NCBI RefSeq assembly: GCF_900110115.1
Contig: NZ_FOCM01000003.1
Location: 1-64,000 of the forward strand
Direction: 5' to 3'
DNA length: 64,000 nt
Source of the DNA: Palleronia pelagia
GTDB lineage: Bacteria; Pseudomonadota; Alphaproteobacteria; Rhodobacterales; Rhodobacteraceae
The notes under the pieces were generated by a model. That model made no database searches, was not told the origin of the DNA, and saw only the letters and a list, made by a program, of their open reading frames with translations. Of this stretch, positions 10,908-54,480 are shown piece by piece. The position numbers and the translations under genes were made by a program. Numbering within the stretch: the stretch's first letter is position 1; each line of letters begins with the position of its first letter.

Positions 10908-10971
10908 GAGTATTTCTGGACCAGTGATGCCATGGGCGACGCCTGCCGCATCACTGGTCTTCAAATACTTC
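10908..10971. repeat. Palindromic pair of the convergent-gap repeat element
   Basis: One copy on the plus strand (10908-10929, GAGTATTT-CTGG-ACCAGTGATG) faces one on the minus strand (10949-10971, reading AGTATTT-GAAG-ACCAGTGATG). The arms match at 18 of 22 positions, and the spacer contains its own GGCG-A-CGCC palindrome (10935-10943). The element lies between the convergent coiled-coil gene and moaE. Transcribed from either side it would fold into a long imperfect hairpin. See 23234, 38613, 54343 and 54458 for the other copies. Confidence 0.85.
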
Positions 10972-11014
10972 CAGGACACTCCATAGGCGCCGCGCGACAC
11001 GGGCAGCGGCGCGG

Positions 11015-11452
11015 CTACCAGCGGTCCAGCGCCGCCTCGTCGGTGTCCTTGGCGGCGACCCATTCGGCGCCGTCCCCGGTGACTTCCTTCTTCCAGAAAG
11101 GTGCGCGGGATTTCAGGTAGTCCATCAGGAAATCCGCAGCGGCGAAGGCGGCGGCGCGGTGGGCGCCGGCGGTGGCGACCATCATGATCTGCTCGCCGGG
11201 GCGCAGCTTGCCGTGACGGTGAATGACCAGCACGTCGCGCAGGTCCCAGCGGGCCTGTGCCCGCTCGGCGATCTCGGTCAGGGCCTTGGCGGTCATGCCG
11301 GGATAATGCTCGATTTCCATGTGGCGCAGGCCGCCGTCGTCGCGCACCAGGCCCGAGAACGTCACCACCGCGCCGCTGTCGCCCCGCCGGGCGGCGAAGC
11401 GGTTCAGCTCGGCGCCCGCATCGAAGGGCTCGGCCTGCACGCGGATATCCAT
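11015..11452 (-). CDS. moaE: MoaE, molybdopterin synthase catalytic subunit
   Basis: 145 aa, the family's usual length. Motifs AVVTFSGLVRD (about 28-38), LEIEHYPG-like IEHYPGMT, VIHRHGKLRPGE and the C-terminal APFWKKEV with its conserved lysines are present. With MoaD it inserts sulfur into cyclic pyranopterin monophosphate to make molybdopterin. It is separated from moaD by only 3 nt. Confidence 0.97.
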   Translation of the reverse strand: MDIRVQAEPFDAGAELNRFAARRGDSGAVVTFSGLVRDDGGLRHMEIEHYPGMTAKALTEIAERAQARWDLRDVLVIHRHGKLRPGEQIMMVATAGAHRAAAFAAADFLMDYLKSRAPFWKKEVTGDGAEWVAAKDTDEAALDRW

Positions 11453-11455
11453 GGC

Positions 11456-11707
11456 TCAGCCGCCGGTCATGGGAGGGAAGAACGCGACCTCGCGCGCCGT
11501 GCCCAACGGCGCGTCGAAATCGGTGAGCTCCTGGTCCACGGCGACCCGCAACGCCTTCAGGTCCTGGAACGCCACCGCGTAGCGATCCTCGCGCGCGGTC
11601 AGCTCGGCCACCAGGTCGGCCACGGTGGCGGCGTCGGTCTCGACCCGCTCACGCGGGAGGCCGATACGTTCGCGCAGCCAGGCGAAATAGAGAACGTCCA
11701 GGGTCAT
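11456..11707 (-). CDS. moaD: MoaD, molybdopterin synthase sulfur-carrier subunit
   Basis: 83 aa ubiquitin-like protein ending in the obligatory Gly-Gly (FFPPMTGG), whose terminal carboxylate becomes the thiocarboxylate sulfur donor to MoaE. The N-terminal LDVLYFAWLRERIG and VADLVAEL are typical. The ATG overlaps the pgsA TGA (ATGA at 11704-11707), so it is probably coupled to pgsA translation. The longer frame extending into pgsA is a shadow. Confidence 0.95.
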   Translation of the reverse strand: MTLDVLYFAWLRERIGLPRERVETDAATVADLVAELTAREDRYAVAFQDLKALRVAVDQELTDFDAPLGTAREVAFFPPMTGG

Positions 11708-12369
11708 GCGGGCTCCTTCAGGAACGGCAGGGCCTTGCGGAAATAATCCCACCCGGTGATCAGCGTCAACGCCGCCGCGACCCACAGCAGCGCGAGGCCG
11801 ACATACCCGGCCGCGTCGCGCGCCTGGGCCAGCCAGAGCAACCCGACCTCGTCGGCGATGGACCCGTCGAGGATGCCGGACAGCGTCGCGTCGTCCATGC
11901 CGATGGACCGGTCGATCATGTGATGCAGGAAGATGTCGCGCGAAAACAGCACCGCGATCGCCACCATCTGCGCCGTGGTTTTCCACTTGGCAAGCTTCGT
12001 GACCTGCAGCAGCTTGGCGTCAGCGCCAAGGAATTCGCGCAGCCCGCTGACGAAGACCTCGCGGAAGACAATGAAGGTCGCGGGCAGCACCAGCCAGGGC
12101 GACATCGAGGAATAACCAACGATCACCAGCAGCGCGATCACCACCATCGCCTTGTCGGCGATGGGGTCGAGCATGGCGCCGAAGCGGCTTTCCTGTTGCC
12201 AGCTGCGCGCGAGATAGCCGTCGAACCAGTCGGTGATGGCCGCGCCGAGGAACAGCACCAGGGCGAACCAGTCCGCCCAGGGCCGGGTGAAGTACAGGAA
12301 CATGACCGCCACGCCGGGCGCGGCCAGCAGCCGCAGGACGGTCAGGATGTTCGGAAGGGTCCATTTCAT
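11704..12369 (-). CDS. pgsA: PgsA, CDP-diacylglycerol-glycerol-3-phosphate 3-phosphatidyltransferase
   Basis: 221 aa membrane enzyme of the CDP-alcohol phosphotransferase family. The signature DG-x2-AR-x8-G-x3-D-x3-D is visible (DGYLARSWQQ...GAMLDPIADK, about 51-78). It makes phosphatidylglycerophosphate, the committed step to phosphatidylglycerol and cardiolipin. The order uvrC-pgsA-moaD-moaE is, from memory, common in alphaproteobacteria. Confidence 0.96.
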   Translation of the reverse strand: MKWTLPNILTVLRLLAAPGVAVMFLYFTRPWADWFALVLFLGAAITDWFDGYLARSWQQESRFGAMLDPIADKAMVVIALLVIVGYSSMSPWLVLPATFIVFREVFVSGLREFLGADAKLLQVTKLAKWKTTAQMVAIAVLFSRDIFLHHMIDRSIGMDDATLSGILDGSIADEVGLLWLAQARDAAGYVGLALLWVAAALTLITGWDYFRKALPFLKEPA

Positions 12370-12704
12370 GGGCGATTGATAGACGTGCGCGCCCTGGGTG
12401 GAAAGGGGTCAGGCGAGGGGCGCCGCCCCTCGCGCTCCCCGGAGGTATTTCGGGAAAGATGAAGGAGGCGGTGGCGTGTGACTCGGGGCCGGCTCTTGGT
12501 GAATGGGCGAAGCCGCGGCTTGCGCCAAATTGACGGATTATCGGGGCACCGCCCGTTCGGTTCCGGATGCCCTATCTGGGCTCCGCCCGTTCGCGGCTTG
12601 ATCGCTCCACTGGAGCGATCATCGGCTACGCCGAACCGCCGTGTGTCGGGGCTCCGCCCGTTCGGTGCTGAAATCGCTCCACCGGAGCGATTTCCGGGCG
12701 CACC
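12370..12704. repeat. pgsA-uvrC spacer with hairpins and triple direct repeat
   Basis: 335 nt without a supportable gene between two minus-strand genes. It holds three copies of GGGC-A/T-CCGCCCGTTCG (12544-12559, 12578-12593 and 12649-12664). Two inverted repeats share a core: GATCGCTCCA-C-TGGAGCGATC (12600-12620) and AAATCGCTCC-ACC-GGAGCGATTT (12671-12693). The second lies 11 nt past the uvrC stop and may end or stabilise its mRNA, though it has no U-tract. GGAGGTATTTCGGGAAAGATGAAG (12441-12464) is a separate element. Confidence 0.75.
12441..12464 (+). repeat. GGAGGTATTT...AAAGATGAAG element
   Basis: A single copy of a motif I recall seeing repeatedly in intergenic DNA of Rhodobacteraceae (a GGAG-TATTT...GGAAAGATGAAG form). 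It shares its ends (GAG-TATTT and GATG) with the convergent-gap repeat described elsewhere here, so the two may be variants of one family. The recall is from general knowledge, not a search. Confidence 0.5.
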
Positions 12705-14561
12705 TCACCCCCTTTCATGAAAATGATCGTAGATCTTCTCGGCGAGCGAGGCGCTGATGCCGTCCACGGCCTTCAGGTCCTTCAAGTCGGCGCGGCTGAC
12801 GGCCTTGGCCGATCCGAAATGGGTCAGCAGCGCGCGCTTGCGGGTGGCGCCGACGCCGGGCACGTCGTCCAGCGGCGTGGCGCTGACAGACTTGGCCCGC
12901 CGCGCGCGGTGGGTGCCGATGGCGAAGCGGTGCGCCTCGTCCCGCAGACGCTGCACGAAATACAGCACCGGGTCGTTGTGGCGCAGGGCGAAGGGCTGTT
13001 TGCCCGTGCGGTGGAACTCTTCCTTGCCGGCGTCCCGGTCCAGCCCCTTGGCCACGCCCACCATGGCCACGTCCTCGACCCCGTGTTCCTCCATGATCTG
13101 GCGCACGGCGCTGACCTGCCCCGCGCCCCCGTCGATCAGCAGCAGGTCCGGCCACAGCCCCTTCTCGCGGTCCGGGTCATCCTTCAGCAGGCGCTTGAAG
13201 CGCCGGGTCAGCACCTCTTTCATCATGCCGAAATCGTCGCCGGGGGTCAGGTCGTCGCCCCGGATGTTGAACTTGCGGTACTGGTTCTTCAGGAACCCCT
13301 CGGGTCCCGCCACGATCATCGCGCCCACGGCATTGGTCCCCTGGATGTGGGAGTTGTCGTAGACCTCGATCCGCTCGGGCCGGGTCTCGAGATCGAAGGC
13401 CTCGGCCAGCCCATCGAGCAGCTTGGCCTGGGTGGCCGTCTCGCTCATCTTGCGCCCCAGGCTTTCGCGGGCGTTGCGCAGGGCGCCAGCGACCAGGTCC
13501 TTCTTCTCGCCCCGTTGGGGCACCTCGATCCGGACCTTGCGGCCCAGCTTCTCGGTCAGGGCGCCCGCCATCAGGTCGCTGTCCTCGATCTCGTCCGACA
13601 GAAGCAGCAGGCGCGGCGGGTCCTTGGTGTCGTAGAACTGCCCGATGAAGGCCTGAAGCACCTCGGCCGCGTCGGCGCCCGCGCCGGTGCGGGGATAGAA
13701 GTCGCGGTTGCCCCAGTTCTGGTTCGCCCGGATGAAGAAGACCTGCACGCAGGCCTGCCCCCCTTCCATGTGGAGCGCGATGACATCGGCCTCGGCCACG
13801 CCCTGCGGGTTGATGCCCTGCCCGCCCTGCACGTGGGTCAGGGCGCGGATCCGGTCGCGCAGGGCGGCGGCGCGCTCGAACTCCATGGCCTCGGACGCCT
13901 TCTCCATCTCGCCGGCCAGCTGGGCCTGCACGCGGGTTGTCTTGCCCTGCAGGAAGTCCTCGGCATCGGCGACCGAGGCCGCGTAGTCCTGGGCGCTGAT
14001 CTTGCCGACGCAGGGGCCGCTGCACCGCTTGATCTGGTACAGAAGGCAGGGCCGGGTGCGGCTTTCGAACATGGTGTCGGTGCAGTTGCGCAGCAGGAAC
14101 ACGCGCTGGAGCTGGGTGAGCGTCCGGTTCACCGCGCCGGCGCTGGCGAAGGGGCCGTAATAGCTGCCCTTGTCGCGCTTGGCGCCGCGATGCTTGCGGA
14201 TCTGCGGATAGTCGTGGCCCGAGACGAGGATGTTAGGGAACGACTTGTCGTCGCGCAGCAGCACGTTGAACTTGGGCTTGAGCTGCTTGATCAGGTTCTG
14301 CTCGAGCAGCAGGGCCTCGGTCTCGGTCCGGGTCGAGAGGAACATCATCGACCGCGTCTCGCGGATCATGCGGGCGATGCGCGGGCTGTGGCCGCTGGGA
14401 TTGGCGTAATTCGCCACGCGCTTCTTCAGGTTGCGCGCCTTGCCGACATAGAGAACCGCCTGCCGCTCATCCAGCATCCGGTAGACGCCGGGCGAGTTGT
14501 CCAGCGTCCTTAGGTAGGACTGGATCAGCGCGTGGCCGGTCAGCGGGCTGTCGTCGGTCAT
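12705..14561 (-). CDS. uvrC: UvrC, excinuclease ABC subunit C
   Basis: 618 aa. The N-terminal GIY-YIG nuclease domain is evident ([26 protein letters not shown], about 19-45). A Cys-rich segment ([18 protein letters not shown]), a UvrB-interacting UVR region, the RNase-H-like C-terminal nuclease domain ([28 protein letters not shown]) and a terminal HhH motif ([21 protein letters not shown]) follow. It makes both incisions in nucleotide excision repair. No SOS box is seen in front of it. Confidence 0.97.
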
Positions 14562-14828
14562 CGGGATCTCGCGATTCTGGTGCTGGGCTGCAAGTTATGC
14601 GCGGGAGCCACAAGCGAAAAGACGTCCCCAAATTCTGTGGATAACCCTGGGGGCAAACTCAGGGATTGCCGGAAAAAGCCTTTTCTACAGGGGCGTTCGC
14701 TGGTTCGCCCAAAAATACAGCAGTATTGTAAAGCGCTGAATTCCATTGGGAAATATTGTATACCGGGCCTATCTCATTGAGGCAGAAGGAAATTATGAAG
14801 GATTCGTGACGAATGGGATAACGTAGGG
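14562..14828. promoter_or_regulatory. AT-rich region upstream of uvrC with a DnaA-box-like 9-mer
   Basis: About 267 nt, clearly more AT-rich than the rest of the window, between the uvrC start and the SDR-like gene's 3' end. It contains a perfect DnaA-box consensus on the minus strand (TTATCCACA, plus-strand positions 14636-14644), an inverted repeat AATAC-AGCA-GTATT (14714-14727) and repeated TATTGTA. It presumably carries the uvrC promoter. A single DnaA box does not make an origin. Confidence 0.45.
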
Positions 14829-15458
14829 TCATCCGGAGCCGCGCGGCTCGGACCGGAGCTGCAGGACCTGCCCGGTGATCGACGGTGTCGCGATCAGGTA
14901 TCGCAGGCTGGGCGCAAGGTCCTCCGACGTCAGGGGCAGACGGCTGTCGATGGTGACGAGTCCGGCGTGCGCATCGCCGTTTCGCACATGTGCGGTGTGG
15001 TCGGCCGGGACGATCGCGTTGACCCGCAGGCGCGGCGCGAATTGCTGGGCGCCGATCCGCACCATGGACACCAGTGACGCGGCGGCCATCGCTAGGCTTG
15101 CCTGATCGGGCGTGGCCGAGTTCGGTGGCTGGTCAATGACGTGGATGATCTGGGTCATGGGTCGTGGGCCATCCGCGTCGTTGCCCGGGGGCAGAGCTTG
15201 CCGCGCGAACGCACGCGACAGCGCGGCGAGGTCACGCGGCACGCGAAGAACGGCGTCGTCCAGCCCTTTGTCATCGTCGAGCCGGTCCTCGGTGGTGGTG
15301 CCGGTCACACAGATCAGCAGGTCAGGCCAGTTGCCAAGCTCGGCCCGCGCCCGTTCCATCGCTTCGGGTCCGTCGGCGATGCAACAGGGAACGCCACAGG
15401 CCCCGGCCACCACGCGCACAAGCGCGGGCGCGTTGCCCGTCACCAGCGCATGGGTCAC
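14829..15458 (-). CDS. Degenerate SDR-family (Rossmann) protein, probably non-catalytic
   Basis: 209 aa from a GTG that overlaps the antiporter stop (GTGA, 15455-15458). The C-terminal half reads like a short-chain dehydrogenase: SLVSMVRIGAQQFAPRLRVN-type helix, VNAIVPADHT, and a final ITGQVLQL. However, the N-terminal motif is TGNAPALVRVV instead of TG-x3-G-x-G, and no Tyr/Lys pair stands where YxxxK should be (TPDQASLAMAAASLV). It is likely a pseudoenzyme or a diverged binding protein. The function is unknown. Confidence 0.7.
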   Translation of the reverse strand: MTHALVTGNAPALVRVVAGACGVPCCIADGPEAMERARAELGNWPDLLICVTGTTTEDRLDDDKGLDDAVLRVPRDLAALSRAFARQALPPGNDADGPRPMTQIIHVIDQPPNSATPDQASLAMAAASLVSMVRIGAQQFAPRLRVNAIVPADHTAHVRNGDAHAGLVTIDSRLPLTSEDLAPSLRYLIATPSITGQVLQLRSEPRGSG

Positions 15459-16414
15459 GCCATCACCAGCCGCGCGAGATAGACTGCATAGGCCGCGCAG
15501 AAGATCACGCCCCAGATCCGCCCCATGTACCAGCGGCGGAAGACGAACGGGATGAGCAGCAGGGACGCGCCCAGCATCACCCACAGGTCCAGGGCGAGGA
15601 ATTCGCGACCGATCGGGATCGGCCCGACGATCGCGGTGATGCCCATGATGGCCAGCAGGTTGAACAGGTTCGACCCGATGACGTTGCCCAGCGCCACGTC
15701 GGCCTGCCGCCGTATGGCCGCGATCACCGTCGTCGCCAGTTCCGGCAAGGAGGTGCCGATGGCGACCAGTGTCAGTCCGATCACCGCGTCCGACAGGCCG
15801 AACATCTTGGCGATCTCGGTTGCAGATCCGATCAGGATCTGCGCGCCCAGCGGCAGGCCGACCAGTCCGACCACCAGGAAGGCCGCGATTTTCCAGCCGG
15901 AAAGCGCGGGATCGGCACCTTCGAGATCCTCGACCAGGTCCTCGACGGGCTCCTTGCGCGCATCGTTGCGCGACGCCAGCCCCTCGCGCAGCTGGTCGCC
16001 CAGCACAAGCGCCAGCGCGGCCAGAAGGACGAGGCCGTGCCACCAGGTCAACGGCCCGGCGAAGCACAGCCCGATGAACAGCAGCGTTCCGCCCAGCATG
16101 GTGACGAAGCTTTTGCGCGTCTCGCAATCCTTCATCGAGATGCCCGAGATCAGCGCGGGCACGCCCAGCACAAGCAGGATGTTGGCGGTGTTCGATCCCA
16201 CGACATTGCCCAGCGCGATGCCCGGAACCCCGTCCAGTACCGCACCGACCGAGATCAGAAGCTCGGGCGCCGATGTGCCGAAGGCGACCACGGTCAGGCT
16301 GACGATCAGGGCGGGGATGCCCAGCCGCAACGCGAGGTTCACGGCGCCGCGCACCAGCGCGTCGCCCGCAAGCAGGAGGATCGCCAATCCGACGATGGCC
16401 CAGACGAAAACCAT
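15455..16414 (-). CDS. Calcium/sodium antiporter (CaCA family, YrbG-like)
   Basis: 319 aa inner-membrane protein with the internal duplication of CaCA exchangers. The two ion-binding repeats are FGTSAPELLISVGA (about 47-60) and IGTSLPELATTVIA (about 215-228), each followed by a GN-x-x-GSN helix (LGNVVGSNTANILLVLG and LGNVIGSNLFNLLAIMG). An acidic cytoplasmic loop (about 150-165) joins the halves. It exchanges Ca2+ or Na+ across the membrane. Translation is coupled to the SDR-like gene through GTGA. Confidence 0.93.
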   Translation of the reverse strand: MVFVWAIVGLAILLLAGDALVRGAVNLALRLGIPALIVSLTVVAFGTSAPELLISVGAVLDGVPGIALGNVVGSNTANILLVLGVPALISGISMKDCETRKSFVTMLGGTLLFIGLCFAGPLTWWHGLVLLAALALVLGDQLREGLASRNDARKEPVEDLVEDLEGADPALSGWKIAAFLVVGLVGLPLGAQILIGSATEIAKMFGLSDAVIGLTLVAIGTSLPELATTVIAAIRRQADVALGNVIGSNLFNLLAIMGITAIVGPIPIGREFLALDLWVMLGASLLLIPFVFRRWYMGRIWGVIFCAAYAVYLARLVMA

Positions 16415-16418
16415 GCGC

Positions 16419-16577
16419 TCAGCCCTTTCCGCAGGCGCAGGGGCCCTTGCCCAGGCGATACCGGCCGCAGCGGTCGCATTTCATGGATTGCAGCCGCTTC
16501 TGCCCCGGAAAGCGCAGCCTTCCGAACATGGCGAGAACCAGCATGCCGATGAGGAACAGCGATACGATCTTGATCAT
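16419..16577 (-). CDS. 52-aa membrane protein with a C-terminal zinc-ribbon-like motif
   Basis: Started at MIKIVSLFLIGM (ATG at 16575-16577). One transmembrane helix (about 4-20) is followed by a basic stretch and KCDRCGRYRLGKGPCACGKG, i.e. CxxC-x9-CxC, a likely metal-binding knuckle. The gene lies 4 nt upstream of the antiporter start and 4 nt after the sppA stop, so it is probably in the same operon. I do not know a function. The longer start shown by the frame (16607) runs into sppA and is less likely. Confidence 0.7.
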   Translation of the reverse strand: MIKIVSLFLIGMLVLAMFGRLRFPGQKRLQSMKCDRCGRYRLGKGPCACGKG

Positions 16578-16581
16578 GCGA

Positions 16582-17382
16582 TCAGAGCCCGAACCGGGCG
16601 AAGGCAAGCTTGTCCTCGACCGCGTCCGTTCCCGCGCGCATCAGCGAGGCGCCGAAACGGCTGAGGAAGGGGCGGCGCTGCTTGTACTCGACGAAGCGCG
16701 TCTTCTGCCCGAACCGTTCCTTCATCACCGGTGAAAGATGACCGATACCGTCGGCAAGGCCCATCTCGCACGCACGCTCGCCGACCCAGATCTCGCCAGT
16801 GAAAAGGCGGTCGTCCGCGGGCAGCTTGGCACCGCGCCGGTCCTTCACGTGGGAGATGAACGACTCGTGGATCTGGTTCTGAAGGTCCTTCAGCCGCGCC
16901 ACGTCATCGGGGTTCTCGGGCTTGAACGGGTCCAGCATGCTTTTCGACTTGCCCGAGGTATAGACACGCCGTTCGATCCCGTTGCGGGCGATGAACTCCG
17001 AGAGCCCGAAACTGGCCGAGATCACGCCGATGGATCCGACGATGGAATTGCGGTCGACGAAGATCTCGTCCGCCGCAGTCGCCAGCCAGTAGCCGCCCGA
17101 GGCGGCGACATCCTCGACGAAGGCCACGACCGGCACGCCTTTCTCGTCGGCCAGCCGCCTGATGCGCGCGGCGATCAGCGAGGATTGCACCGGGCTGCCG
17201 CCGGGCGAATTCAGCACCAGGGCCACGGCCTTGGGCTTGCCGCGCCGGAACGCGCGTTCGATCAGGCTGGACAGGCCCGCATCGTTCAGCCGCGCACCCG
17301 CGCCGCCCGCCGCGATGACACCCTGCAGGCGCACGACGGCCACCAGCGGATCGGAATTGAGAAAGGGGATGAAGCGTTTCAT
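16582..17382 (-). CDS. SppA/SohB-type S49 signal peptide peptidase
   Basis: 266 aa, the short single-domain form. The catalytic Ser is in VAASGGYWLATA (S95) and the general-base Lys is in the SGKSKSML segment (143-150). An oxyanion-type LNSPGGSP (57-64) is present. There is no obvious N-terminal transmembrane helix, so it may be cytoplasmic or membrane-peripheral, unlike full-length SppA. It degrades released signal peptides or membrane fragments in the model systems. Confidence 0.9.
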   Translation of the reverse strand: MKRFIPFLNSDPLVAVVRLQGVIAAGGAGARLNDAGLSSLIERAFRRGKPKAVALVLNSPGGSPVQSSLIAARIRRLADEKGVPVVAFVEDVAASGGYWLATAADEIFVDRNSIVGSIGVISASFGLSEFIARNGIERRVYTSGKSKSMLDPFKPENPDDVARLKDLQNQIHESFISHVKDRRGAKLPADDRLFTGEIWVGERACEMGLADGIGHLSPVMKERFGQKTRFVEYKQRRPFLSRFGASLMRAGTDAVEDKLAFARFGL

Positions 17383-17434
17383 CCGCCTGATGTAGGCGCC
17401 ACCGCGTCCGAGGCCAAGCCCGCCCCGCGCGACG

Positions 17435-18196
17435 TCAGTCGCGCAGGCGCCAGCCGGTCCGGAAGATCAGCCCGATGATGAAGATGCAGGCCGCCGTGAA
17501 CCCCAGGATCGCCAGCAGCGACCAGCCGATGGGCACATCCGCCAAACCGTAGAACGACCACCGGAAGCCCGACACCAGGTAGACCACCGGGTTGAAGTAG
17601 GTGACCGTCTGCCACAGCTCGGGCAGCATCGAGACCGAGTAGAACGCACCACCCAGGAAAATCAGCGGTTGCAGCACCAGCAGCGGCACCAGCTGCAACT
17701 GTTCGAAGTTGCCCGCCCAGATGCCGATGATGAAGCCTAGCAGGCTGAACGACAGGCAGGTGAGCAGCAGGAACGCCAGCATCCAGACCGGGTGCTGGAT
17801 CTGCAGATCGACGAAGAAGAATGCCGTCGCGAGGATGATCAGCCCGATCGCCAGCGACTTGGTCGCCGCCGCCAGCACGTAGCCGGCCGTGATCTCGAGG
17901 AAGGACGCGGGCGCCGACAGAAGCTCGTAGATCGTGCCGATGAACTTGGGAAAGTAGATCCCGAAGGCCGCGTTGGTGACGGATTGGGTCAGCACCGTCA
18001 GCATGATCAGCCCCGGCACGATGAACGCGCCATAGCTCACGCCCTCGACCTGGTCGATGCGGCTGCCGATGGCGGCGCCGAACACCACGAAATACAACGA
18101 CGTGGACATCACCGGCGCCACCACCGATTGCAGCAGCGTGCGGAAGGTGCGCTTCATCTCGAAGATGTAGATGGCCTTTATGGCGATCAGGTTCAT
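17435..18196 (-). CDS. ABC-2 type transporter permease
   Basis: 253 aa with six predicted membrane segments ([113 protein letters not shown]). It pairs with the ATPase immediately upstream; the ATG overlaps its stop (18193-18196). The family exports drugs, polysaccharides or lipids (YadH/NodJ-like). The substrate here is unknown. Confidence 0.93.
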
Positions 18197-19122
18197 CGCG
18201 CGTCCCCCTTGGTCAGGTCCACGAAGATGTCTTCGAGGCTGGATTGCTCGGTGCGCACGTCGCTCATCTGCAGGCCGGCGGCCTGGAGGTCGTTCAGCAG
18301 GCGCGTGATGCCCGTGCGATCCTTGCGGCTGTCGTAGTGATAGACGATCTCGGACCCGCCATCCGACAGGGTCAGGTCATATTTCCCCAGGCTCTCGGGG
18401 ATACCGTTCGCCCGCTCGGACAGCTCGACCACCAGCTGCTTCTTGCCCAGCTCGGCCATCAGCGCCTCTTTCTCGCGGACGAGCTTGATCTCGCCCTTGG
18501 CGATGATGCCGATGCGGTCGGCCATCAACTCGGCCTCCTCGATGTAGTGGGTGGTCAGGATGATGGTGACGCCGTGGGATTTCAGATCCTTCATCGTCTC
18601 CCACATGTCGCGGCGCAGCTCGACATCGACGCCCGCCGTGGGCTCGTCCAGGAACAGCACCTTGGGCTCATGCGCCAGCGCCTTGGCGATCAGAACGCGG
18701 CGCTTCATGCCACCGGACAACTCCTTGGTCTGGGCGTCTTTCTTGTCCCACAGGCTCAGCTGCCGCAGAATGCGCTCCATGTGGGCGTCGTCGCGCGGCT
18801 TGCCGAACAGCCCGCGCGAGAAGGTGACGGTGTTCATCACCGTCTCGAACGGCTCGAGGTTGATCTCCTGCGGGACAAGGCCGATCAGGCTGCGCGCGGC
18901 CCGGTAGTCATCGACCGTGTCGTGGCCGCCCACCTTCACCTGGCCCGACGTGGCCGTGGCGATACCGCAGATGATCGAGATCAGCGTCGTCTTCCCGGCG
19001 CCGTTCGGGCCCAGCAGGGCCAGGACCTCGCCGTCGCGGATGTCGAGCGACACGCCTTTCAGCGCCTCGAACCCGCCGTCATAGGTTTTCTGCACGTCCT
19101 TGACGGACACGATGGGGGTCAT
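18193..19122 (-). CDS. ABC transporter ATP-binding protein (YadG/NodI-like)
   Basis: 309 aa. Walker [10 protein letters not shown] (about 37-45), Q-loop VPQEINL, signature LSGGMKRRV, Walker [13 protein letters not shown] and the H-loop TTHY are all intact. A C-terminal extension ([13 protein letters not shown]..., about 220-309) follows, as in ABC-2 exporters. The start is the ATG at 19120-19122. The long frame reaching to 20205 is antisense to the flavoprotein and rejected. It drives the permease encoded downstream. Confidence 0.95.
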
Positions 19123-19257
19123 GGCGCACCTTTCTGTCTGTCCGCCCGATCTAGTGCCCCGGATGGCCGCCGCCAAGCCATGCCATGCGCACACCCCGCG
19201 CTGCCGTCCCGCACCTTGCGCTGGAACGACCCCGCGGCCTGTGGCAGGAGCGCGGAC

Positions 19258-21654: not shown

Positions 21655-21770
21655 GGCGCAGCATTGGCCGCAGGCGGCGAGGCTGTCAAAACGCAATCGG
21701 TGATGCGTGCCATGCGACGCCGCGAATTATCGCGTTTTCCCTGCCCCGGCACAGGCGTTATGCAAGGGGC

Positions 21771-23185: not shown

Positions 23186-23233
23186 GCCGGTCGCGCCACG
23201 GCCACGGGGCGGCGCGGTCTGATCGCTTCGGAT

Positions 23234-23255
23234 GAGTATTTGGAGACCAGTGATG
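23234..23255 (+). repeat. Convergent-gap repeat element, zapE/folC copy
   Basis: Single copy (GAGTATTT-GGAG-ACCAGTGATG) in the 119-nt gap between the convergent zapE and folC genes. It agrees with the 38613 copy at 20 of 22 positions. Confidence 0.8.
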
Positions 23256-23304
23256 TGAAGCGCGCGCCTTGCGGCTTGTCCGTGCGGCGATCTGCCGAAA
23301 GCGC

Positions 23305-38590: not shown

Positions 38591-38612
38591 GCACGCGGCA
38601 GACGGTGCGCCG

Positions 38613-38634
38613 GAGTATTTGAAGACCAGTGATG
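38613..38634 (+). repeat. Convergent-gap repeat element, MFS/aminotransferase copy
   Basis: Copy GAGTATTT-GAAG-ACCAGTGATG in the 100-nt gap between the convergent MFS and aminotransferase genes. Beyond the core it continues GC-A-ATGGGC, matching the 10908 copy, so the repeat unit may be about 32 nt. Confidence 0.85.
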
Positions 38635-38690
38635 CAATGGGCCGCGGCGCTTCGACCCCGCCGGGATGCGAGCCGGGCCTCGCGCGCGGG

Positions 38691-41080: not shown

Positions 41081-41090
41081 CGCCGGCGCG

Positions 41091-41564: not shown

Positions 41565-41613
41565 GGCGACCGAGATAGGGATGCGCGCCGCCGCTGTCCA
41601 GCGGCGCGCGGGT

Positions 41614-45027: not shown

Positions 45028-45136
45028 TCATTCCTCCCCTTTGTGGACAATCGGTCGGGAGACCGTTGCCAGTGCTCATTAAGGACAGATAAACACCAGC
45101 CAGGCAAATCATACGCCAAATCCTGGAGCACCCCCC

Positions 45137-46876: not shown

Positions 46877-48255
46877 AGCCCCCCGCCAAGGCGCCGGTTG
46901 GCAAGATCGAGCCCGTCAAGCAACGCCCCGACCAGGCGCGCAAGGCAGCCATGGCCGAGACCAGTCGACGCTGGACCGCGCGCTGGCCGCTGACGGTGGG
47001 CGTGCTGGCGCTGACCCTTCTTGTGGGCGGCCTGGGCAGCTGGGCCTTCATGACCGAGATCTCCGGCGCGATCATCGCCACCGGCCAGGTCGAGGTCGAG
47101 CGGAATCGCCAGGTCGTCCAGCACCCCGACGGCGGAGTCGTCACCGAGATCCTGGTGAACGAGGGCGATCGCGTCGAGGCAGGCGACCCGCTGATCCTGC
47201 TGGACACGGTTCTTCTGAACACCCAGTTGGCCACCGCACGCGGCCAGCTGTCCGAGCTTCTCGCCCGGCAGGCCCGGCTTGAGGCCGAGCGTGACAATGC
47301 GGACGAAATCGATTTCTCGGAGCTGATTGAATTCGCCGGCGACACGGAAGAGGCCCAGGAACTCATGCAGGGCCAGTCCAACCTGTTTCAGGCCAGGAAC
47401 GAGAACCGCACCCAGCTGGTCCGCCAGCTGAACGGGCGCCGCGCGCAGATCGACCGCCAGATCGACGGGATCACCGCCCAGCGCGACGCGCTCGAAGTGC
47501 AATTGGGGCTGATCCAGACCGAACTCGAGGATCAGCAGAGCCTTCTCGACCAGGGGCTGACCCAGGCCAGCCGCGTGTCGTCCCTGCGCCGGGAGGAAGC
47601 CCGGCTCCTGGGCCAGGTCGGCGAGTTGGAAGCATCTGCCGGCGAGGCGGCCGAGCGCATCAGCGAAATAGAGGTCCAGCTTCTGACGCTGGATACCCAG
47701 CGCCGCGAAGAGGCCATCACCCAGCTGCGGGATCTGCAGTTCCGCGAGGTCGAGTTTCGCGAGCGGGCGAATGCCCTGCAGGAACAACTCAGCCGCACCG
47801 CCATCACCGCGCCTGTCTCCGGCGTGGTATACGGCCTGACAGTCTTCGCAGAACGCAGCGTTGTCCGGCCCGCCGATCCGATCCTTTACATCGTGCCGCA
47901 GGATCGGCCCTTGATCATCGCCGCCCAGGTGGACCCCATCCACATCGACCAGGTCGACGTGGGGCAGGAGGTGTCCGTTCGCCTGTCGGCCTTCGACGCG
48001 CGAACCACGCCGGAACTGTTCGGAACGGTCACCCAGGTATCGGCCGACAGCTTCACGGACGAGGGCAGCCGTTCGTCCTTCTACCGCGCTGAGATTGCCC
48101 TGAACCCGGGCGAGCTCGATCGCCTGCCACCGGAACGTGTCCTGATCCCCGGCATGCCGGTGGAGACCTTTCTGCAGACCGAGGATCGGACGCCGATCGC
48201 CTACCTGGTGAAGCCGCTGACCGACTATTTCAACCGCGCCTTCCGCGAGAGCTGA
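46873..48255 (+). CDS. HlyD-family type I secretion periplasmic adaptor
   Basis: 460 aa from GTG 46873, overlapping the ABC stop. One N-terminal transmembrane segment (about 35-60, LTVGVLALTLLVGGLGSWAFM), a lipoyl-like half (VEVERNRQVVQHPDGGVVTE), a long coiled coil (about 115-300, ISEIEVQLLTLDTQ) and the membrane-fusion beta-barrel (TAITAPVSGVVYGL). It bridges the ABC transporter to an outer-membrane TolC. No TolC or RTX substrate is in the window. Confidence 0.93.
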   Translation: MKPPAKAPVGKIEPVKQRPDQARKAAMAETSRRWTARWPLTVGVLALTLLVGGLGSWAFMTEISGAIIATGQVEVERNRQVVQHPDGGVVTEILVNEGDRVEAGDPLILLDTVLLNTQLATARGQLSELLARQARLEAERDNADEIDFSELIEFAGDTEEAQELMQGQSNLFQARNENRTQLVRQLNGRRAQIDRQIDGITAQRDALEVQLGLIQTELEDQQSLLDQGLTQASRVSSLRREEARLLGQVGELEASAGEAAERISEIEVQLLTLDTQRREEAITQLRDLQFREVEFRERANALQEQLSRTAITAPVSGVVYGLTVFAERSVVRPADPILYIVPQDRPLIIAAQVDPIHIDQVDVGQEVSVRLSAFDARTTPELFGTVTQVSADSFTDEGSRSSFYRAEIALNPGELDRLPPERVLIPGMPVETFLQTEDRTPIAYLVKPLTDYFNRAFRES

Positions 48256-48271
48256 GACAGGAGAGCCCCCG

Positions 48272-48733
48272 ATGAACACGATCGAGACACGCCTTGCCGA
48301 CCTTGGGGTCACCCTGCCCGATGCGCCTGCGCCCGCGGCCAATTACGTTCCCTACGTTCAGGTCGGCGACCTGGTGCATGTCTCAGGCCAGATCAGCATG
48401 CAGGATGGCCAGATGATGACCGGCAAGCTGGGCGACACCGTGTCGGTCGAGGACGGCGCCCGGGCCGCCCGGGCCTGCGCGATCAGCCTGCTGGCGCAGC
48501 TGAAGGCCGCGTGCGACGGCGACATCGACCGTCTGGTCCGGGTGGTGAAGCTGACGGGCTTCGTGAACTCCACCGCCGATTTCACCGACCAGCCCAAGGT
48601 GATCAACGGTGCGTCCGATTTCCTGGTCGAGGCGCTGGGCGATGCGGGGCGGCACGCCCGCTCGGCCGTCAGCGCGGGATCCCTGCCCCTTGGCGTCTCG
48701 GTCGAGATCGAAGCGATCTTCCAAGTCCGGTGA
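48272..48733 (+). CDS. RidA-family enamine/imine deaminase
   Basis: 153 aa, the longer (YjgH/Rut-C-like) RidA form. Contains LVHVSGQISMQDGQMMTGKLG (about 33-53), LVRVVKLTGFVNSTADFTDQP and the C-terminal GGRHARSAVSAGSLPLGVSVEIEAIF with the Arg that binds substrate. The family removes reactive 2-aminoacrylate-type intermediates. It overlaps the GDPD gene by 4 nt (GTGA). Confidence 0.93.
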   Translation: MNTIETRLADLGVTLPDAPAPAANYVPYVQVGDLVHVSGQISMQDGQMMTGKLGDTVSVEDGARAARACAISLLAQLKAACDGDIDRLVRVVKLTGFVNSTADFTDQPKVINGASDFLVEALGDAGRHARSAVSAGSLPLGVSVEIEAIFQVR

Positions 48734-49491
48734 CCCTGCCCCGCACCTTTCTCGATCGTCCCCTGGCGCATCGCGGTCTTCACGACCTGTCCGCGGGCGT
48801 GGTCGAAAACAGCATGGCCGCGTTCGAAGCGGCGGCCGACGCCGCCTACGGGATCGAGCTGGACGTCCAGATCAGCGCCGATGGCGTGCCCGTCGTGTTC
48901 CACGATCACACGCTGGACCGCGTCACCGACCGTACGGGTCCGGTGAATGCCCTGACCGTCGAAACGCTGGGCAAGACCCGGTTGGCGGGCAGTGACGACA
49001 CGATCCTGACGCTGGAACAGGTTCTGGACCAGCTAGGCAACCGCACGCCCGTCGTGGTCGAGATCAAGGACCAGTCCGACAGCGCGCTGGCGGGCGCCGC
49101 GCTGGACCAGGAGACCGGGCGCGTCCTGCGCGCCGCGCGCGACCGCCACGGCAGCGACGTGGCCGTGATGTCCTTCAACCCGCAGTACATCGTCGGGCTG
49201 TCGTGGCTGGGCGAGGATATTCCGCGCGGCATCACCTCGGGCACGATCGACGATTACGCGACCGACCTGCCCGAACAGGTGCGGCGCGACCTGGCCGCGA
49301 ACCTGTATTACGAGGCCGCCGGCGCCGGGTTCGTCAGCCACAATCACCGCGACCTCGCCAATCCGCGCATCGCCGAGCTGAAGGCAAGAGGTGCCGCGAT
49401 CCTGTGCTGGACGGTGCGAAATGCATCCGAGGCCAAGACCGCCCTGCGCATCGCCGACAACATCACGTTCGAGGGCTTTCGCCCCGCTTGA
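48730..49491 (+). CDS. Glycerophosphodiester phosphodiesterase family protein
   Basis: 253 aa from GTG 48730, overlapping the RidA stop. The GDPD motif LAHRGLHD...ENSMAAFEAA, EL-D-V pair (GIELDVQIS) and HDHTLDRVTDRTG show the metal-binding Glu/Asp and His residues. It hydrolyses glycerophosphodiesters to glycerol-3-phosphate and alcohol. No signal peptide is seen, so it is likely cytosolic. Confidence 0.9.
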   Translation: MTLPRTFLDRPLAHRGLHDLSAGVVENSMAAFEAAADAAYGIELDVQISADGVPVVFHDHTLDRVTDRTGPVNALTVETLGKTRLAGSDDTILTLEQVLDQLGNRTPVVVEIKDQSDSALAGAALDQETGRVLRAARDRHGSDVAVMSFNPQYIVGLSWLGEDIPRGITSGTIDDYATDLPEQVRRDLAANLYYEAAGAGFVSHNHRDLANPRIAELKARGAAILCWTVRNASEAKTALRIADNITFEGFRPA

Positions 49492-49523
49492 ACCCTGCGG
49501 GCACCGGCCCAGTTATCCACCCC

Positions 49524-50705
49524 ATGGATGACACCCCGATCGAGCTGCGCGCCCATGCCAGCCTGTCCGAAATCGACCCCGCCGAATGGGATGCCTGCGC
49601 CTGCCCCGAGGCGGCGGAGGGCCGACCGCGTGATCCGTTCACCACGCACCGCTTCCTGCTGGCGCTGGAAGAGTCGGGTTCGGTCGGGCCCGGCACCGGC
49701 TGGCAGCCGCAATACCTTGCCGTGCGGCAGAGTGACCGGCTGATCGCCTGCGCGCCGCTTTACGCCAAGGGGCACAGCCAGGGCGAGTATATCTTCGACC
49801 ACAACTGGGCCCACGCCTACGAGCGCGCGGGTGGACGGTACTACCCCAAGCTGCAGATCGCCGTGCCCTTCACCCCCGCCACCGGCCGCCGCCTGCTGGT
49901 GCGCGAAGGATATGAGGAGACGGGCCGCGCCGCCCTGTTGCAAGGCGCGCTGCGCATCGCCACCGACAACGGCCTGTCGTCGCTGCACATCACCTTCTGC
50001 ACCGAGGCCGAGGCAATCGCGGGCGAGGATATGGGCCTGCTGCGCCGCGCTGGGCAGCAATACCACTGGCTCGACGACGGCTACGGCGATTTCGGCGGCT
50101 TCCTGGCCGCGCTGAGTTCGCGCAAGCGCAAGAACATCCGCAAGGAACGCGCCACCGCGCAGGCCTTCGGCGGTGAGATCGTGCACCTGACCGGCGACCA
50201 GATCGAGCCGCACCACTGGGACGCTTTCTGGCGGTTCTACCAGGACACCGGCGCGCGCAAGTGGGGCACGCCCTACCTGACGCGCGACTTCTTCGACCGC
50301 GCGCACGAGACCCTGCGCGACGACATCCTGCTGATCCTTGCCCAGCGCGACGGCGTGCCCATCGCGGGCGCCCTGAACCTGATCGGGCGCGAAACGCTTT
50401 ATGGCCGCTACTGGGGCTGCGTCGAGGATCACAACGCGCTGCATTTCGAACTTTGCTACTACCAGGCCATCGACTGGGCGCTGGCCCACGGCCTGACCCG
50501 GGTCGAGGCGGGCGCGCAGGGCGAACACAAGCTGGCGCGCGGCTATCTGCCCGTGCCCACCCATTCGCTGCACTGGATGGCCGACGAAGGCTTTTCGCGC
50601 GCCGTCGCCGACTACCTCGAGGCCGAGCGGCGCGCCGTGGACGAGGAGATCGAGGTGCTGACCAGCTACGGCCCGTTCCGCAAGGTTGAAGGAGAGCCAG
50701 AATGA
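49524..50705 (+). CDS. FemAB-like / GNAT-fold peptidogalycan-biosynthesis family protein
   Basis: 393 aa. The ATG at 49524 has no strong RBS and lies 32 nt after the GDPD stop. Motifs such as [35 protein letters not shown] and [20 protein letters not shown] match the PF04339-type proteins with a GNAT-like fold. Peptidoglycan or aminoacyl transfer is suggested by family name only. The stop overlaps phhB (ATGA). Confidence 0.82.
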
Positions 50706-50998
50706 CCGAGAAACTTGAAAAGGGCGCCCGCGACGAGGCGCTGTCGCCGCTGAAAGACGCCGGCTGGGAGATGGCCGCTGACCGCGACGCGATCACCAAG
50801 ACCTTCCGCTTCGACAGTTTCGTCGACGCCTTCGGCTGGATGGCGCGGGCCGCGATCCTGGCCGAAAAGATGAACCACCACCCGGAATGGTTCAACGTTT
50901 ACAACAAGGTAACCGTCACATTGACAACCCATGACGCCGGTGGTCTGTCGCATCTCGATATCGACCTTGCCAACAAGATGGACACGCTCTCGCGATGA
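50702..50998 (+). CDS. 4a-hydroxytetrahydrobiopterin dehydratase (PhhB/PCD)
   Basis: 98 aa. The motif [15 protein letters not shown] (about 56-70) holds the paired His residues of the dehydratase and is the family signature. It recycles the pterin cofactor of aromatic amino-acid hydroxylases, or acts in Moco-related pterin chemistry. Both ends overlap neighbours by 4 nt (ATGA at 50702-50705 and 50995-50998). Confidence 0.95.
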
Positions 50999-51918
50999 TC
51001 GAAACGATCCTGAACACGCCGCTGATGAACGGCACCTCCTTGGGCGACCTGCTGTCGCTGGAATTCCTGATCGCGCTTCTGGGCGACGTGCTGACCGCCA
51101 TCGTGATCCTGATCATCGGTTACCTGCTGGGCGGCTGGGCCGGGCGGCGCATCCGCTCGATCGGCACCAAGGGCAAGCACCTGGACGAGACGCTGTTCAA
51201 CTTCCTGGGCAACATCGTCCGCTACGTCTTCATCGGCTTCTCGTTCCTGTTCGTGCTGAACACCTTCGGGGTGCAGACGACCAGCGTCGTCGCCGTCATC
51301 GGTGCCGCCGGTCTTGCCATCGGCCTTGCCCTGCAGGGAACACTGTCGAACGTGGCGGCGGGCGTGATGATCATCTTCTTCCGCCCCATCAAGAACGGCG
51401 ATTTCGTCGAGATCTCCGGCCAGATGGGCACGGTCAAGGACATCTCGCTGAACTTCACCGAGCTGGCCAGTATCGGCAACGTGCAGATCATCATCCCCAA
51501 CTCGCAGGTCTGGGGAAACACCATCGTCAACTACTCGGTCTACGAAACCCGGCGGGCGGAGTGGACCTTCGGCGTGGGCTACGGCGCCAACCTGGCGCAG
51601 GCCGAGAAGGTCATCCGCGACACGATCATGGCCGACGAACGCTCCATGTCCGAGCCCGAGCCCTTCATCCAGATCAACAACCTGGGCGACTCGTCGTGCG
51701 ATTTCCTGGTGCGGGTGTGGTGCAACTCGGCGGACTATTTCGGCTACCAGGCCGACATGAAGCGCCGCGTGAAGGAAGAACTCGACCGCAATGGCGTGCC
51801 GATCCCGTTCCCCACGCGCACCGTCTGGATGAACGAGGGCGACAGCCCCACGCCCCACCACGGTCTGACCTCGTCCAGCGACGAGGACGTGGTCAAGGCC
51901 GACTCCGAGCTGACCTGA
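50995..51918 (+). CDS. Small-conductance mechanosensitive channel (MscS family)
   Basis: 307 aa. Three transmembrane helices (about 20-45, 75-95 and 105-130; the last is the pore helix with [17 protein letters not shown]), then the beta domain with [20 protein letters not shown] (about 128-147) and [13 protein letters not shown], and a C-terminal alpha/beta part. It releases osmolytes upon hypo-osmotic shock. Overlaps phhB by 4 nt. Confidence 0.95.
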
Positions 51919-51941
51919 GGCCAGACCGGAGACGCGCTATC

Positions 51942-52430
51942 CTACAGGGTGGCGAGGATCGCCTCGCCACCCGAGGTCTCGCAGACGCCGGGGTTCTCCT
52001 CGGCGTGCAGGGTGACGATCTTGTTGTCGTCCACCACCATCGCGTAGCGTTTCGAGCGGTCGAAGAACCCCACGGGCGGCGCGGTGAAATCCATGCCGGC
52101 GGCCTTGGTGAACTCGGCCGAGGCATCGCCCAGCATGGTGATCCCCGCCACGTCCGCGCCGGTGGAGTCCGACCACGCCTTCATCACGAAGGGGTCGTTC
52201 ACCGCCACGCAGATCACGTCATCGATCCCCTTCTCGCCCAGCTGGTCGCGCACCCGCATGAAGCTGGGCACGTGGGCCGAGGTGCAGGTCCCGGTAAATG
52301 CGCCGGGCAGGCCGAAGACCACGACCTTCTTGCCGCTGGTCAGGTCGTGCAGCTGCACCTGTTCGGGGCCATCCGCCCCCATCCGCAGCAGCGTGGCATC
52401 GGGAAGCGTATCGCCTGTGGTAATGCTCAT
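51942..52430 (-). CDS. Peroxiredoxin, Prx5 type
   Basis: 162 aa from ATG 52428-52430, with AAGGA upstream. The peroxidatic Cys is in GAFTGTCTSAHVP (C49), preceded by the ready FGLPGAFTGTC motif of Prx5. A second Cys (C150, GVCETSGGE) may serve as resolving Cys. It reduces hydroperoxides. Divergent from the FAD reductase gene by 86 nt. Confidence 0.93.
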   Translation of the reverse strand: MSITTGDTLPDATLLRMGADGPEQVQLHDLTSGKKVVVFGLPGAFTGTCTSAHVPSFMRVRDQLGEKGIDDVICVAVNDPFVMKAWSDSTGADVAGITMLGDASAEFTKAAGMDFTAPPVGFFDRSKRYAMVVDDNKIVTLHAEENPGVCETSGGEAILATL

Positions 52431-52516
52431 CGGTTCGTCCTTCCGGTCGGTTGTTGGCACCATATTCCGCCGACGATATACGGTGCCGACACCGATCCGC
52501 CAGCGGGGACACTTCA

Positions 52517-53728
52517 ATGACACATATCGTCGTGATCGGCGCCGGCCAGGCCGCCAGCTCGCTGATCGGCACGCTGCGGGCCAAGGGCTTCGGCGGCGCC
52601 ATCACCCTTGTCGGCGCCGAACCCGTGCCGCCCTACCAGCGCCCGCCCCTGTCGAAGGGATACCTGCTGGGCGACGTGGCCCGCGACCGGCTGTTCCTGC
52701 GCCCGGCCAGCTGGTGGGATGACCACGATGTGACGCTGAAACTGGGAACGCCGGCCAGCGATATCGACACGGCGGCGCGCACGGTCCGGGTGGGCGACGA
52801 GACGCTGTCCTACGATCAGCTGGCGATCTGCACCGGCCTTGTCCCGCGCGCGCTGCCCGCCGATCTCGGCGGCGTGCTGGACGGCGTGCACACCGTGCGC
52901 AGCCTGGCCGACGTGGACGCGATGGCCGACCCGCTGAAGGCGGCCCGGCGGCTGCTGGTCGTGGGCGGCGGCTATATCGGGCTCGAGGCGGCGGCCGTGG
53001 CCCGCAAGCTCGGCGTCGAGGTCACGCTGGTCGAGGCCGCACCGCGCATCCTGTCCCGCGTCGCCGCGGACGAGACGGCGGCCTATTTCCGCGACCTGCA
53101 TCGCGGCCACGGGGTGCACCTTGTGGAGGGCGCCAGCCTTGCCCGGCTCGAGGGCGAGGCGCGCGTCACCGGCGCGGTCCTGGCCGATGGGCGCCGGATC
53201 GACTGCGATATCGCCATCGTCGGCATCGGCCTGCTGCCCCGCTGCGCCATCGCCGAGGCCGCCGGGCTCGACGTCGATGGCGGGGTTGCGGTCGACGACC
53301 GGGGCCGGACCTCGGACCCGCGGATCTGGGCGGCGGGCGACTGCGCGGCGCTGCCCCTGCCTGGCGGGCGGATGCGGATCGAGTCGGTGGGCAACGCCAT
53401 CGACATGGGTGCGGCGGTGGCGGCCAACATGCTGGGCGCCGATGCCGCCTACGATCCGAAACCGTGGTTCTGGTCGGACCAGTACGACGTGAAGCTGCAG
53501 ATCGCCGGGCTGAACACCGGGCATGACCGTGTCGTGGTGCGGCCCGGCGCCCGCGACGGCGAGGGATCGCACTGGTACTTTGCCGGCGACCGGCTGCTGG
53601 CGGTGGACGCCATGAACGACGCGCGCGCCTACATGATCGGCAAGCGCCTGATCGAGGCGGGCCGGTCGGCCGACCCCGAGACACTGGCCGATCCCGCGGC
53701 CGACCTGAAGGCGCTGCTGCGCGCATGA
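52517..53728 (+). CDS. FAD-dependent ferredoxin/rubredoxin reductase-like protein
   Basis: 403 aa. N-terminal FAD site VVIGAGQAASSLIG, NAD site VVGGGYIGLEAAAVARKLG (about 151-170) and a C-terminal GDCAALP loop (about 275). The PYQRPPLSKGYL and SDQYDVKLQIAGL segments are typical of putidaredoxin-reductase-like (ThcD/CamA) enzymes. It probably passes electrons from NADH to a ferredoxin, none of which is adjacent. Confidence 0.9.
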   Translation: MTHIVVIGAGQAASSLIGTLRAKGFGGAITLVGAEPVPPYQRPPLSKGYLLGDVARDRLFLRPASWWDDHDVTLKLGTPASDIDTAARTVRVGDETLSYDQLAICTGLVPRALPADLGGVLDGVHTVRSLADVDAMADPLKAARRLLVVGGGYIGLEAAAVARKLGVEVTLVEAAPRILSRVAADETAAYFRDLHRGHGVHLVEGASLARLEGEARVTGAVLADGRRIDCDIAIVGIGLLPRCAIAEAAGLDVDGGVAVDDRGRTSDPRIWAAGDCAALPLPGGRMRIESVGNAIDMGAAVAANMLGADAAYDPKPWFWSDQYDVKLQIAGLNTGHDRVVVRPGARDGEGSHWYFAGDRLLAVDAMNDARAYMIGKRLIEAGRSADPETLADPAADLKALLRA

Positions 53729-53738
53729 GGCGGGCGTC

Positions 53739-54308
53739 GTGAGAATCGTCGGCGGCCGGTTCCGGGGCCGCGCCCTCGCGGCCGTGGGCAAAGGCGATCC
53801 TGCCGCCCACCTGCGCCCCACGACCGACCGCGTGCGCGAAAGCCTGTTCAACGTGTTGTCGGGCGGGAAATTCGGCGATCCGGTCACCGGTGCCGCGGTG
53901 CTCGACGTGTTCGCCGGGACCGGCGCCCTGGGGCTCGAGGCGCTTTCGCGCGGCGCGGCCGCCGTCACCTTCCTCGAGAAGGGGCGCAAGGCGCAGGCCA
54001 TCCTGCGCCGCAATCTCGACCTGCTGGGTGTAGAGGCCGAGGCGACGCTGATCTCCCGCGACGCCACCCGCCCCGGCCCGGCGCCCGGCGCCCACGACCT
54101 GGTCTTCCTCGACCCGCCCTACGGCACCGGCCTGGGCGAACGGGCCATGACCGCGCTGCTGGACGGCGGTTGGATCGCGCCCGGCGCTCTGGTGGTCTGG
54201 GAAGACCCGCGTGCGCCGACGCTGCCTGCCGCACTGACCCAGATCGACCAGCGGCGCTATGGCGACAGCATGATCACCTTCGCCCGCCACGACGAGCCCA
54301 ACGCCTGA
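53739..54308 (+). CDS. rsmD: RsmD, 16S rRNA (guanine-966-N2)-methyltransferase
   Basis: 189 aa from a GTG start. The SAM motif VLDVFAGTGALGLEALSRG (about 51-69) and catalytic FLDPPYGTGLG (about 123-133) are clear, together with RPTTDRVRESLFNVL. It modifies G966 in the 30S head. It follows the FAD reductase by 10 nt. A convergent gap with two repeat copies follows. Confidence 0.96.
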   Translation: MRIVGGRFRGRALAAVGKGDPAAHLRPTTDRVRESLFNVLSGGKFGDPVTGAAVLDVFAGTGALGLEALSRGAAAVTFLEKGRKAQAILRRNLDLLGVEAEATLISRDATRPGPAPGAHDLVFLDPPYGTGLGERAMTALLDGGWIAPGALVVWEDPRAPTLPAALTQIDQRRYGDSMITFARHDEPNA

Positions 54309-54342
54309 CCCGCCGTCCGGGCCCGAACGGGCCGGGAAACCC

Positions 54343-54364
54343 CATCACTGGTCCGTAAATACTC
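54343..54364 (-). repeat. Convergent-gap repeat element, rsmD/amt copy 1
   Basis: Minus-strand copy, reading GAGTATTT-ACGG-ACCAGTGATG. Same orientation as the second copy 94 nt further on. It lies 34 nt past the rsmD stop. Confidence 0.8.
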
Positions 54365-54457
54365 ATGGCCGACCATTTCCGGTCGGGCGCGGCGTCCGGG
54401 GTGTCGCGATCCATTCCCACGACCAGCCCGGCCCAGTCCATTCGCTTAACGGCCCAT

Positions 54458-54480
54458 CATCACTGGTCCGAGGATACCTC
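54458..54480 (-). repeat. Convergent-gap repeat element, rsmD/amt copy 2
   Basis: Minus-strand copy, reading GAGGTATCC-TCGG-ACCAGTGATG; it then continues ATGGGC, like the 10908 and 38613 copies. The TATTT part is altered (TATCC), so this is the most diverged copy. Confidence 0.65.

Follow-up and report, generated by a model that had tools for sequence, protein, structure and literature searches.

A 22-bp bipartite box with clade-specific dialects behind gene ends in Palleronia and other Rhodobacteraceae

Introduction

Intrinsic (Rho-independent) terminators lie 3′ of genes, and miniature inverted-repeat transposable elements (MITEs) and other non-autonomous elements are short, insert-like modules that come in lineage-specific sets. 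Here we describe a dispersed 22-bp box that resembles both in part. It was found in a 64,000-nucleotide stretch of the Palleronia pelagia genome (contig NZ_FOCM01000003.1, positions 1 to 64,000; hereafter the window). Two further described systems invite comparison. Repetitive extragenic palindromic (REP) elements lie, in REP-rich genomes, predominantly between unidirectional and convergent open reading frames (ORFs), according to the excerpted text of PMC3733652. The DNA uptake sequences (DUS) of Neisseriaceae have dialects, form inverted pairs at terminators and occur in thousands of copies, as far as the excerpt of PMC3630211 describes them.

The box of the window is a single dialect within a family of boxes that is widespread, though patchily distributed, in Rhodobacteraceae; the left half is constant and the right half is clade-specific. 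No description of it was found in searches of open-access full text, several of which addressed only related topics (subscription papers lay outside the scope); the excerpts of PMC8632094 and PMC5107571 contain nothing resembling it.

Results

The window's main dialect, class A, has the consensus RRGTATTT-NNN-GACCAGTGATG, which replaces a simpler spelling, GAGTATTT-N4-ACCAGTGATG. The spacer in the simpler spelling is 4 nt long with a fixed G as its last base, and a 3-nt spacer gives 0 matches. Copies reported in a preliminary description of the window are present, two end coordinates there being off by one, and dinucleotide shuffles give an expectation of 0 class A copies in the window. Across the whole P. 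pelagia genome (3.85 Mb, 25 contigs; the window genome), class A has 74 sites when up to 3 mismatches are allowed, of which 57 match exactly. The reversed pattern has 0, which rules out chance or base composition as the source of the box.

Sorted by the direction of flanking genes, as called by our own hexamer model and not taken from the annotation, 31 of the 74 sites are convergent, 41 tandem and 2 divergent. Six sites were dropped, three for having 3 mismatches (L123 among these is inside a gene) and three for overlapping ORFs by more than 5 nt (L107, L115, L117), which leaves 68 intergenic copies. Expected placement follows from how a 449-kb sample (the window, a complete contig and 200 kb of a further one) divides its intergenic bases among the gap classes. 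Convergent gaps hold 30 copies against 10.3 expected (P about 1e-8), tandem gaps 37 against 37.2 (P 1.0) and divergent gaps 1 against 20.4 (P about 2e-9). This genome-wide count of orientation classes, which the preliminary description had proposed, bears out a convergent excess and near-absence from divergent gaps, but not an avoidance of tandem gaps, where copies stand at the expected level.

Independent gene calls reproduce the ten convergent junctions of the window: class A is present in all four gaps of at least 100 nt and in none of the six shorter ones. The rule drawn from this, that the element occupies every large convergent gap, fails beyond the window. Among gaps of at least 100 nt in the 449-kb sample, class A is carried by 7/19 convergent, 5/87 tandem and 1/51 divergent gaps; outside the window 3/15 such convergent gaps have it. 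None of the sample's six convergent gaps of at least 400 nt has it, and five convergent gaps of 54–99 nt in the genome do (L111, L116, L122, L126, L127). The rule is a local sharpening of a genuine trend, namely a convergent per-base excess and near absence from divergent gaps. The reported absence from tandem and divergent gaps likewise stands for class A within the window, but a box of another dialect (class B) occupies the tandem gap 12370-12704.

Within tandem gaps, class A lies closer to the upstream stop codon in 27 of 37 cases (median 47 nt, versus 110 nt to the next start), and 21 copies are in sense and 16 in antisense orientation. Copies from five other genera, which are the first ones listed by the searches and not a random draw, comprise 33 convergent, 33 tandem and 2 divergent sites, 4 in ORFs and 6 at locus edges; their pooled tandem-gap orientation is 17/16, one genome (G164) giving a single tandem copy. 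Pooled over six genomes, tandem gaps hold 38 sense and 32 antisense copies, i.e., orientation to transcription is random. An association of the box with gene 3′ ends, as proposed earlier, is confirmed.

Class A is carried at many loci each, among the listed matches in named genomes, by Palleronia salina, P. pontilimi and an uncultured Jannaschia; further genomes among these matches have single ones. Behind the common left half, other genera have right halves such as GAACAATGAAG, GAACAAAGAAG, ACCAGAGAAG, GAATAATGAAG, GACAAGATGAAG and GCCAGAAAAAG. A first broader family pattern matches 25/120 family genomes (reversed control at most 1), and CCCGRAGTATTT followed by 17 free bases matches 92/149 (reversed control never above 2), with at least five copies in 48 of the 149 and up to 98, as counted by eye. 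Outside the family, 4/285 genomes of the class have one match each to CCCCGGAGTATTT. Plasmids of Paracoccus, Ruegeria, Sagittula and Cereibacter match a GC hairpin plus left half, a combination for which 39 among 40 listed matches have no annotated feature beneath; the few such matches in other phyla probably reflect chance in GC-rich sequence.

Several dialects can share a genome: G146 has two (151 matches versus 4 in controls), and the window genome, P. pontilimi and G146 each have two or three. Class B, AGGTATTT-NNN-GAAAGATGAAG, occurs in the window genome behind a GC hairpin (17 of 20 copies by eye); GAGGTATTT followed by free bases has 60 matches there (2 in controls), about 45 of them class B by eye. 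The 20 class B copies in the sampled stretches are 6 convergent, 12 tandem, 1 divergent and 1 unplaced, the lone divergent copy being doubtful, as it lies far inside a called gene. The third dialect, class C (GGATATTT-NNN-AGAACAAAGATG), is found in P. pontilimi, where 800 kb contain 10 convergent, 9 tandem and 2 divergent copies. By eye, several copies in G164 (L273-L282) are faced downstream by a second, different box, whose reverse complement is roughly GGATATTT-N4-CCAAAGAAG; since the facing boxes differ in type, two dialects can oppose each other within one gap.

An asymmetric short site with inverted pairs and dialects between genera recalls the Neisseriaceae DUS as described in the excerpt of PMC3630211, and the clade-specific dialects and intergenic placement would also suit a DNA-uptake-type self-recognition signal. 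We regard such a role as highly improbable: boxes number in the tens, class A with 74 copies and class B with about 45 in 3.85 Mb, versus the thousands given for DUS in that excerpt, few lie in coding sequence, and two or three dialects with differing right halves coexist per genome.

Comparison with P. salina (about 97% identical) indicates which positions of the box are conserved. Orthologous class A and B boxes could be aligned for 67 of 93, the other 26 having no usable orthologue. Changes affect 17/1138 fixed positions (1.5%), 23/201 spacer positions (11.4%) and 549/7979 flanking positions. Some P. salina loci had been obtained because they bear the motif; in the subset of stretches not picked for P. 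salina motifs the figures are 3/340, 9/60 and 113/2391. The right half is paired with a left half at a spacer of 3 in 64/67 cases for class A and 20/20 for class B, in about 1.1 Mb of stretches partly picked for class A. So sharp a difference between fixed and spacer positions inside one 22-bp site would be hard to explain without sequence-specific recognition.

To follow gain and loss, we compared the window genome with P. pontilimi at 228 orthologous gaps that include a 3′ end (alignments mostly 75–88% identical), part of the window-genome stretches having been picked for class A. Each species has a box in 21 gaps and both have one in 10 (1.9 expected, P about 9e-7), leaving 11 gaps where only the one species has it and 11 where only the other does. 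The dialect differs in 3 of the 10 shared gaps (A versus B twice, A versus C once), and the alignment of gap L126 keeps the hairpin with a different right half. Among the class C gaps of P. pontilimi that were compared, 9/10 have no box in the window genome.

Where the box is one-sided, the box-bearing gap is the longer in 17/22 cases, by a median of 67 nt (P = 0.004), and the box-less orthologues are overlapping gene pairs in 5/22; the lengths were entered by hand from the comparison list, and one box-less gap (L145) holds a decayed remnant. Given this extra length, a gap is probably large because the element is in it, which would reverse the cause and effect of the preliminary description. 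One copy of hairpin plus box is translated in frame within a variable linker of bchB. On the simplest view, a module comes and goes behind stop codons, with insertion as the presumed direction.

A purely functional, non-mobile protein site, e.g., a roadblock or boundary where RNA polymerase is halted or the end of a transcription unit is marked, would account for the constraint on both half-sites, the neutrality of orientation, the convergent excess and the retention of boxes at orthologous P. pontilimi gaps. We consider it unlikely, given that the extra length of box-bearing gaps, the lineage-specific class C set and the copy inside bchB look like the spread of a module.

The preliminary description had suggested termination or RNA stability, and a bidirectional element of this kind, in which the box or an inverted pair folds in RNA and sets transcript 3′ ends, has several features in its favour. 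Boxes lie behind stop codons at the median distance given above, and the nine or ten head-to-head class A pairs of the window genome could form long hairpins. Class B resembles an intrinsic terminator in that a GC hairpin usually precedes AGGTATTT, with its TATTT. In hairpin copies of five genomes, the arms and the C-run before the box are equal in length in 67/77; permutation within genomes gives 40.4, and 0/5000 permutations are as high. This hints at two alternative pairings or, perhaps partly, at common descent of subtypes.

RNA folding provides little for class A. Its flanks are more GC-rich and hence more stable than controls, with shuffle z-scores like those of controls, and the idea that class A boxes collectively have an adjoining hairpin was rejected, as none exceeds what GC content gives. 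A box placed in a hairpin loop was also rejected: the flanks pair no better than permuted flanks in 8/9 sets. At 20 nt, class B flanks pair weakly across the box (15/2000 permutations as good), and the class A and G160 sets pair worse than permuted ones (1986 and 1984 of 2000, respectively). The Rfam search gave no match above the gathering threshold in the window, and two matches far below cut-offs in 12 box-bearing loci.

Intrinsic-terminator-like sites are found at 7/54 convergent ends with a box and 8/62 without, and at 3/37 tandem ends with a box and 33/279 without. A coupling of box to intrinsic terminators was rejected on these figures, which show no clear difference, given small numbers and a crude detector. 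The box also departs from intrinsic terminators in having no sense bias (38/32), a conserved sequence past the T stretch, and no hairpin at most class A copies. A GC hairpin with a U-tract in sense orientation is seen for neither class, class B having TATTT in mixed orientation. With random orientation, no class A hairpin beyond composition, no U-tract beyond TATTT and terminators alike with and without the box, a role in termination or RNA stability is unsupported, and we judge it quite improbable.

In the window, the convergent gap 10795-11014 carries an inverted pair of class A boxes, the left arm at 10908-10929 (plus strand, right half GACCAGTGATG) and the right arm at 10949-10970 (minus strand), both at the same place in P. 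salina. Single class A boxes on the plus strand occupy the convergent gaps 23186-23304 (box at 23234-23255) and 38591-38690 (box at 38613-38634). The convergent gap 54309-54594 has two on the minus strand, at 54343-54364 and, as a diverged copy AGGTATCCTCGGACCAGTGATG with 2 mismatches to the RR consensus, at 54458-54479. The class B box AGGTATTTCGGGAAAGATGAAG at 12443-12464 (plus strand), overlooked in the preliminary description, is abutted by a GC hairpin, GCGAGGGG-CGCCG-CCCCTCGC then GCTCCCCGG, at 12413-12442 (plus strand), in which the G-run, C-arm and C-run are four each. By eye, the ammonium transporter gene at 54595-55923 has a textbook intrinsic terminator at 54528-54561 (minus strand; AACCCCGGCGC...GCGCCGGGGTTTTTT); because this terminator shares its gap with two boxes, the box is not substituting for a terminator there.

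The densest cluster of the window genome (G000:C14 142127-145071, L174) has four boxes in 3 kb, including the only convincing divergent copy, and surrounds two genes, one for a DNA ligase and one whose metallo-beta-lactamase match is below threshold. Ten proteins beside boxes were searched, four at this cluster and six at three gaps of the window. Eight belong to an ordinary Pfam family above cut-off; mobile genes adjoining the boxes were rejected as an explanation, there being no transposase or recombinase among the ten, and PADLOC gave no match for three box-flanking proteins. Another box pair is flanked by bchN, bchB and bchH. At L107:3692-5110, most of bchB lies between two oppositely oriented boxes 1397 bp apart, the second of which, with its hairpin, sits inside the bchB reading frame; the P. 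salina site list shows the same spacing.

Discussion

The box has much in common with REP elements and bacterial interspersed mosaic elements (BIMEs), as the GTAG- and CGTC-tagged families appear in the excerpt of PMC3733652: it is short, intergenic and present in many copies, singly and as inverted pairs, with families per lineage. It lies between convergent and unidirectional genes and avoids divergent gaps, a placement that agrees with the second suggestion of the preliminary description, a REP-like element that tolerates only such sites. In place of a palindromic unit of 20–40 bp, however, there is an asymmetric 22-bp core, and the class B hairpin is separate and upstream. The unpaired GTAG/CGTC end tag is absent from the fixed class A columns and from the class B and C boxes, CGTC being found inside one hairpin subtype only. 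A bipartite core with a free 3-nt spacer, one common half and one dialect half also sets the box apart.

A REP system with its REP-associated tyrosine transposase (RAYT; PF01797) was rejected, as PF01797 is absent from the motif-rich genomes tested; it matches in 1/22 genomes, a congener without class A boxes, while 5/14 control genomes are positive. That congener (G001) has seven matches to Y1 (RAYT-like) transposases. The box works like a REP element, yet we do not class it as one, for it has neither the palindrome nor the tag nor the RAYT. From MITEs it differs in showing no terminal inverted repeats or target duplication in the alignments examined.

Overall, we lean towards a REP-like module without RAYT that carries a constrained site for a predicted DNA-binding factor. 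The motif would be the 22-bp core of a short GC-rich module, with an extra length mostly of about 50–110 nt, that is gained and lost just behind stop codons, with copies retained where the neighbouring genes are convergent or tandem and almost none in divergent (promoter) gaps. Its core would form a two-part recognition site of 8 bp, 3 free bp and 11 bp, read by a putative trans-acting factor independently of orientation; its left half is shared by bearers across Rhodobacteraceae and its right half is the clade's dialect. Recognition of double-stranded DNA is favoured by half-sites whose centres lie about one helical turn apart, by the free spacer, and by the lack of both a strand preference and an RNA fold around class A. 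The factor that we infer might move the module or, alternatively, have a role at the ends of transcription units.

Several observations weigh against this interpretation. Neither a factor that binds the box nor an enzyme that mobilises it was identified, and PF01797 is absent from 12/12 motif-rich genomes tested. The dialect is patchy, class A at up to 2 mismatches being present in P. salina and P. pontilimi and in none of the other 11 of 13 congeners, and even the broader CCCGRAGTATTT pattern has no match in 57/149 family genomes. No box has moved between the window genome and P. salina, where 20/20 and 21/21 mapped boxes keep their place in the two directions of comparison. In 5/22 one-sided gaps the box-bearing gap is not the longer, and the alignments examined show no clean target-site duplication or exact insertion edge, so that deletion in the other species is an alternative to insertion. 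The bchB copy is no more than a candidate insertion, the closest solved chains having longer linkers. Finally, the 3-nt spacer changes faster than the flanks (23/201 versus 549/7979, P = 0.017).

Going further than a REP-like module, a family-wide recognition code at gene 3′ ends is a tentative idea: related, fast-evolving DNA-binding proteins might each read RRGTATTT plus their own dialect half. Such proteins would act independently of orientation, as boundary, roadblock or mobiliser, and could drive concerted dialect replacement at orthologous sites.

For studies of gene order, these results are a caution that long convergent gaps can result from extra modules rather than cause their placement. 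For the Rhodobacteraceae, a large and well-studied bacterial family, they reveal a dispersed element in many genomes, and the clade-to-clade differences in spelling of a selected box suggest a DNA-recognising factor. Each genome offers many natural replicate sites under measurable selection, with dialect swaps at orthologous positions, so that a trans-acting factor and an effect at gene ends can be sought directly.

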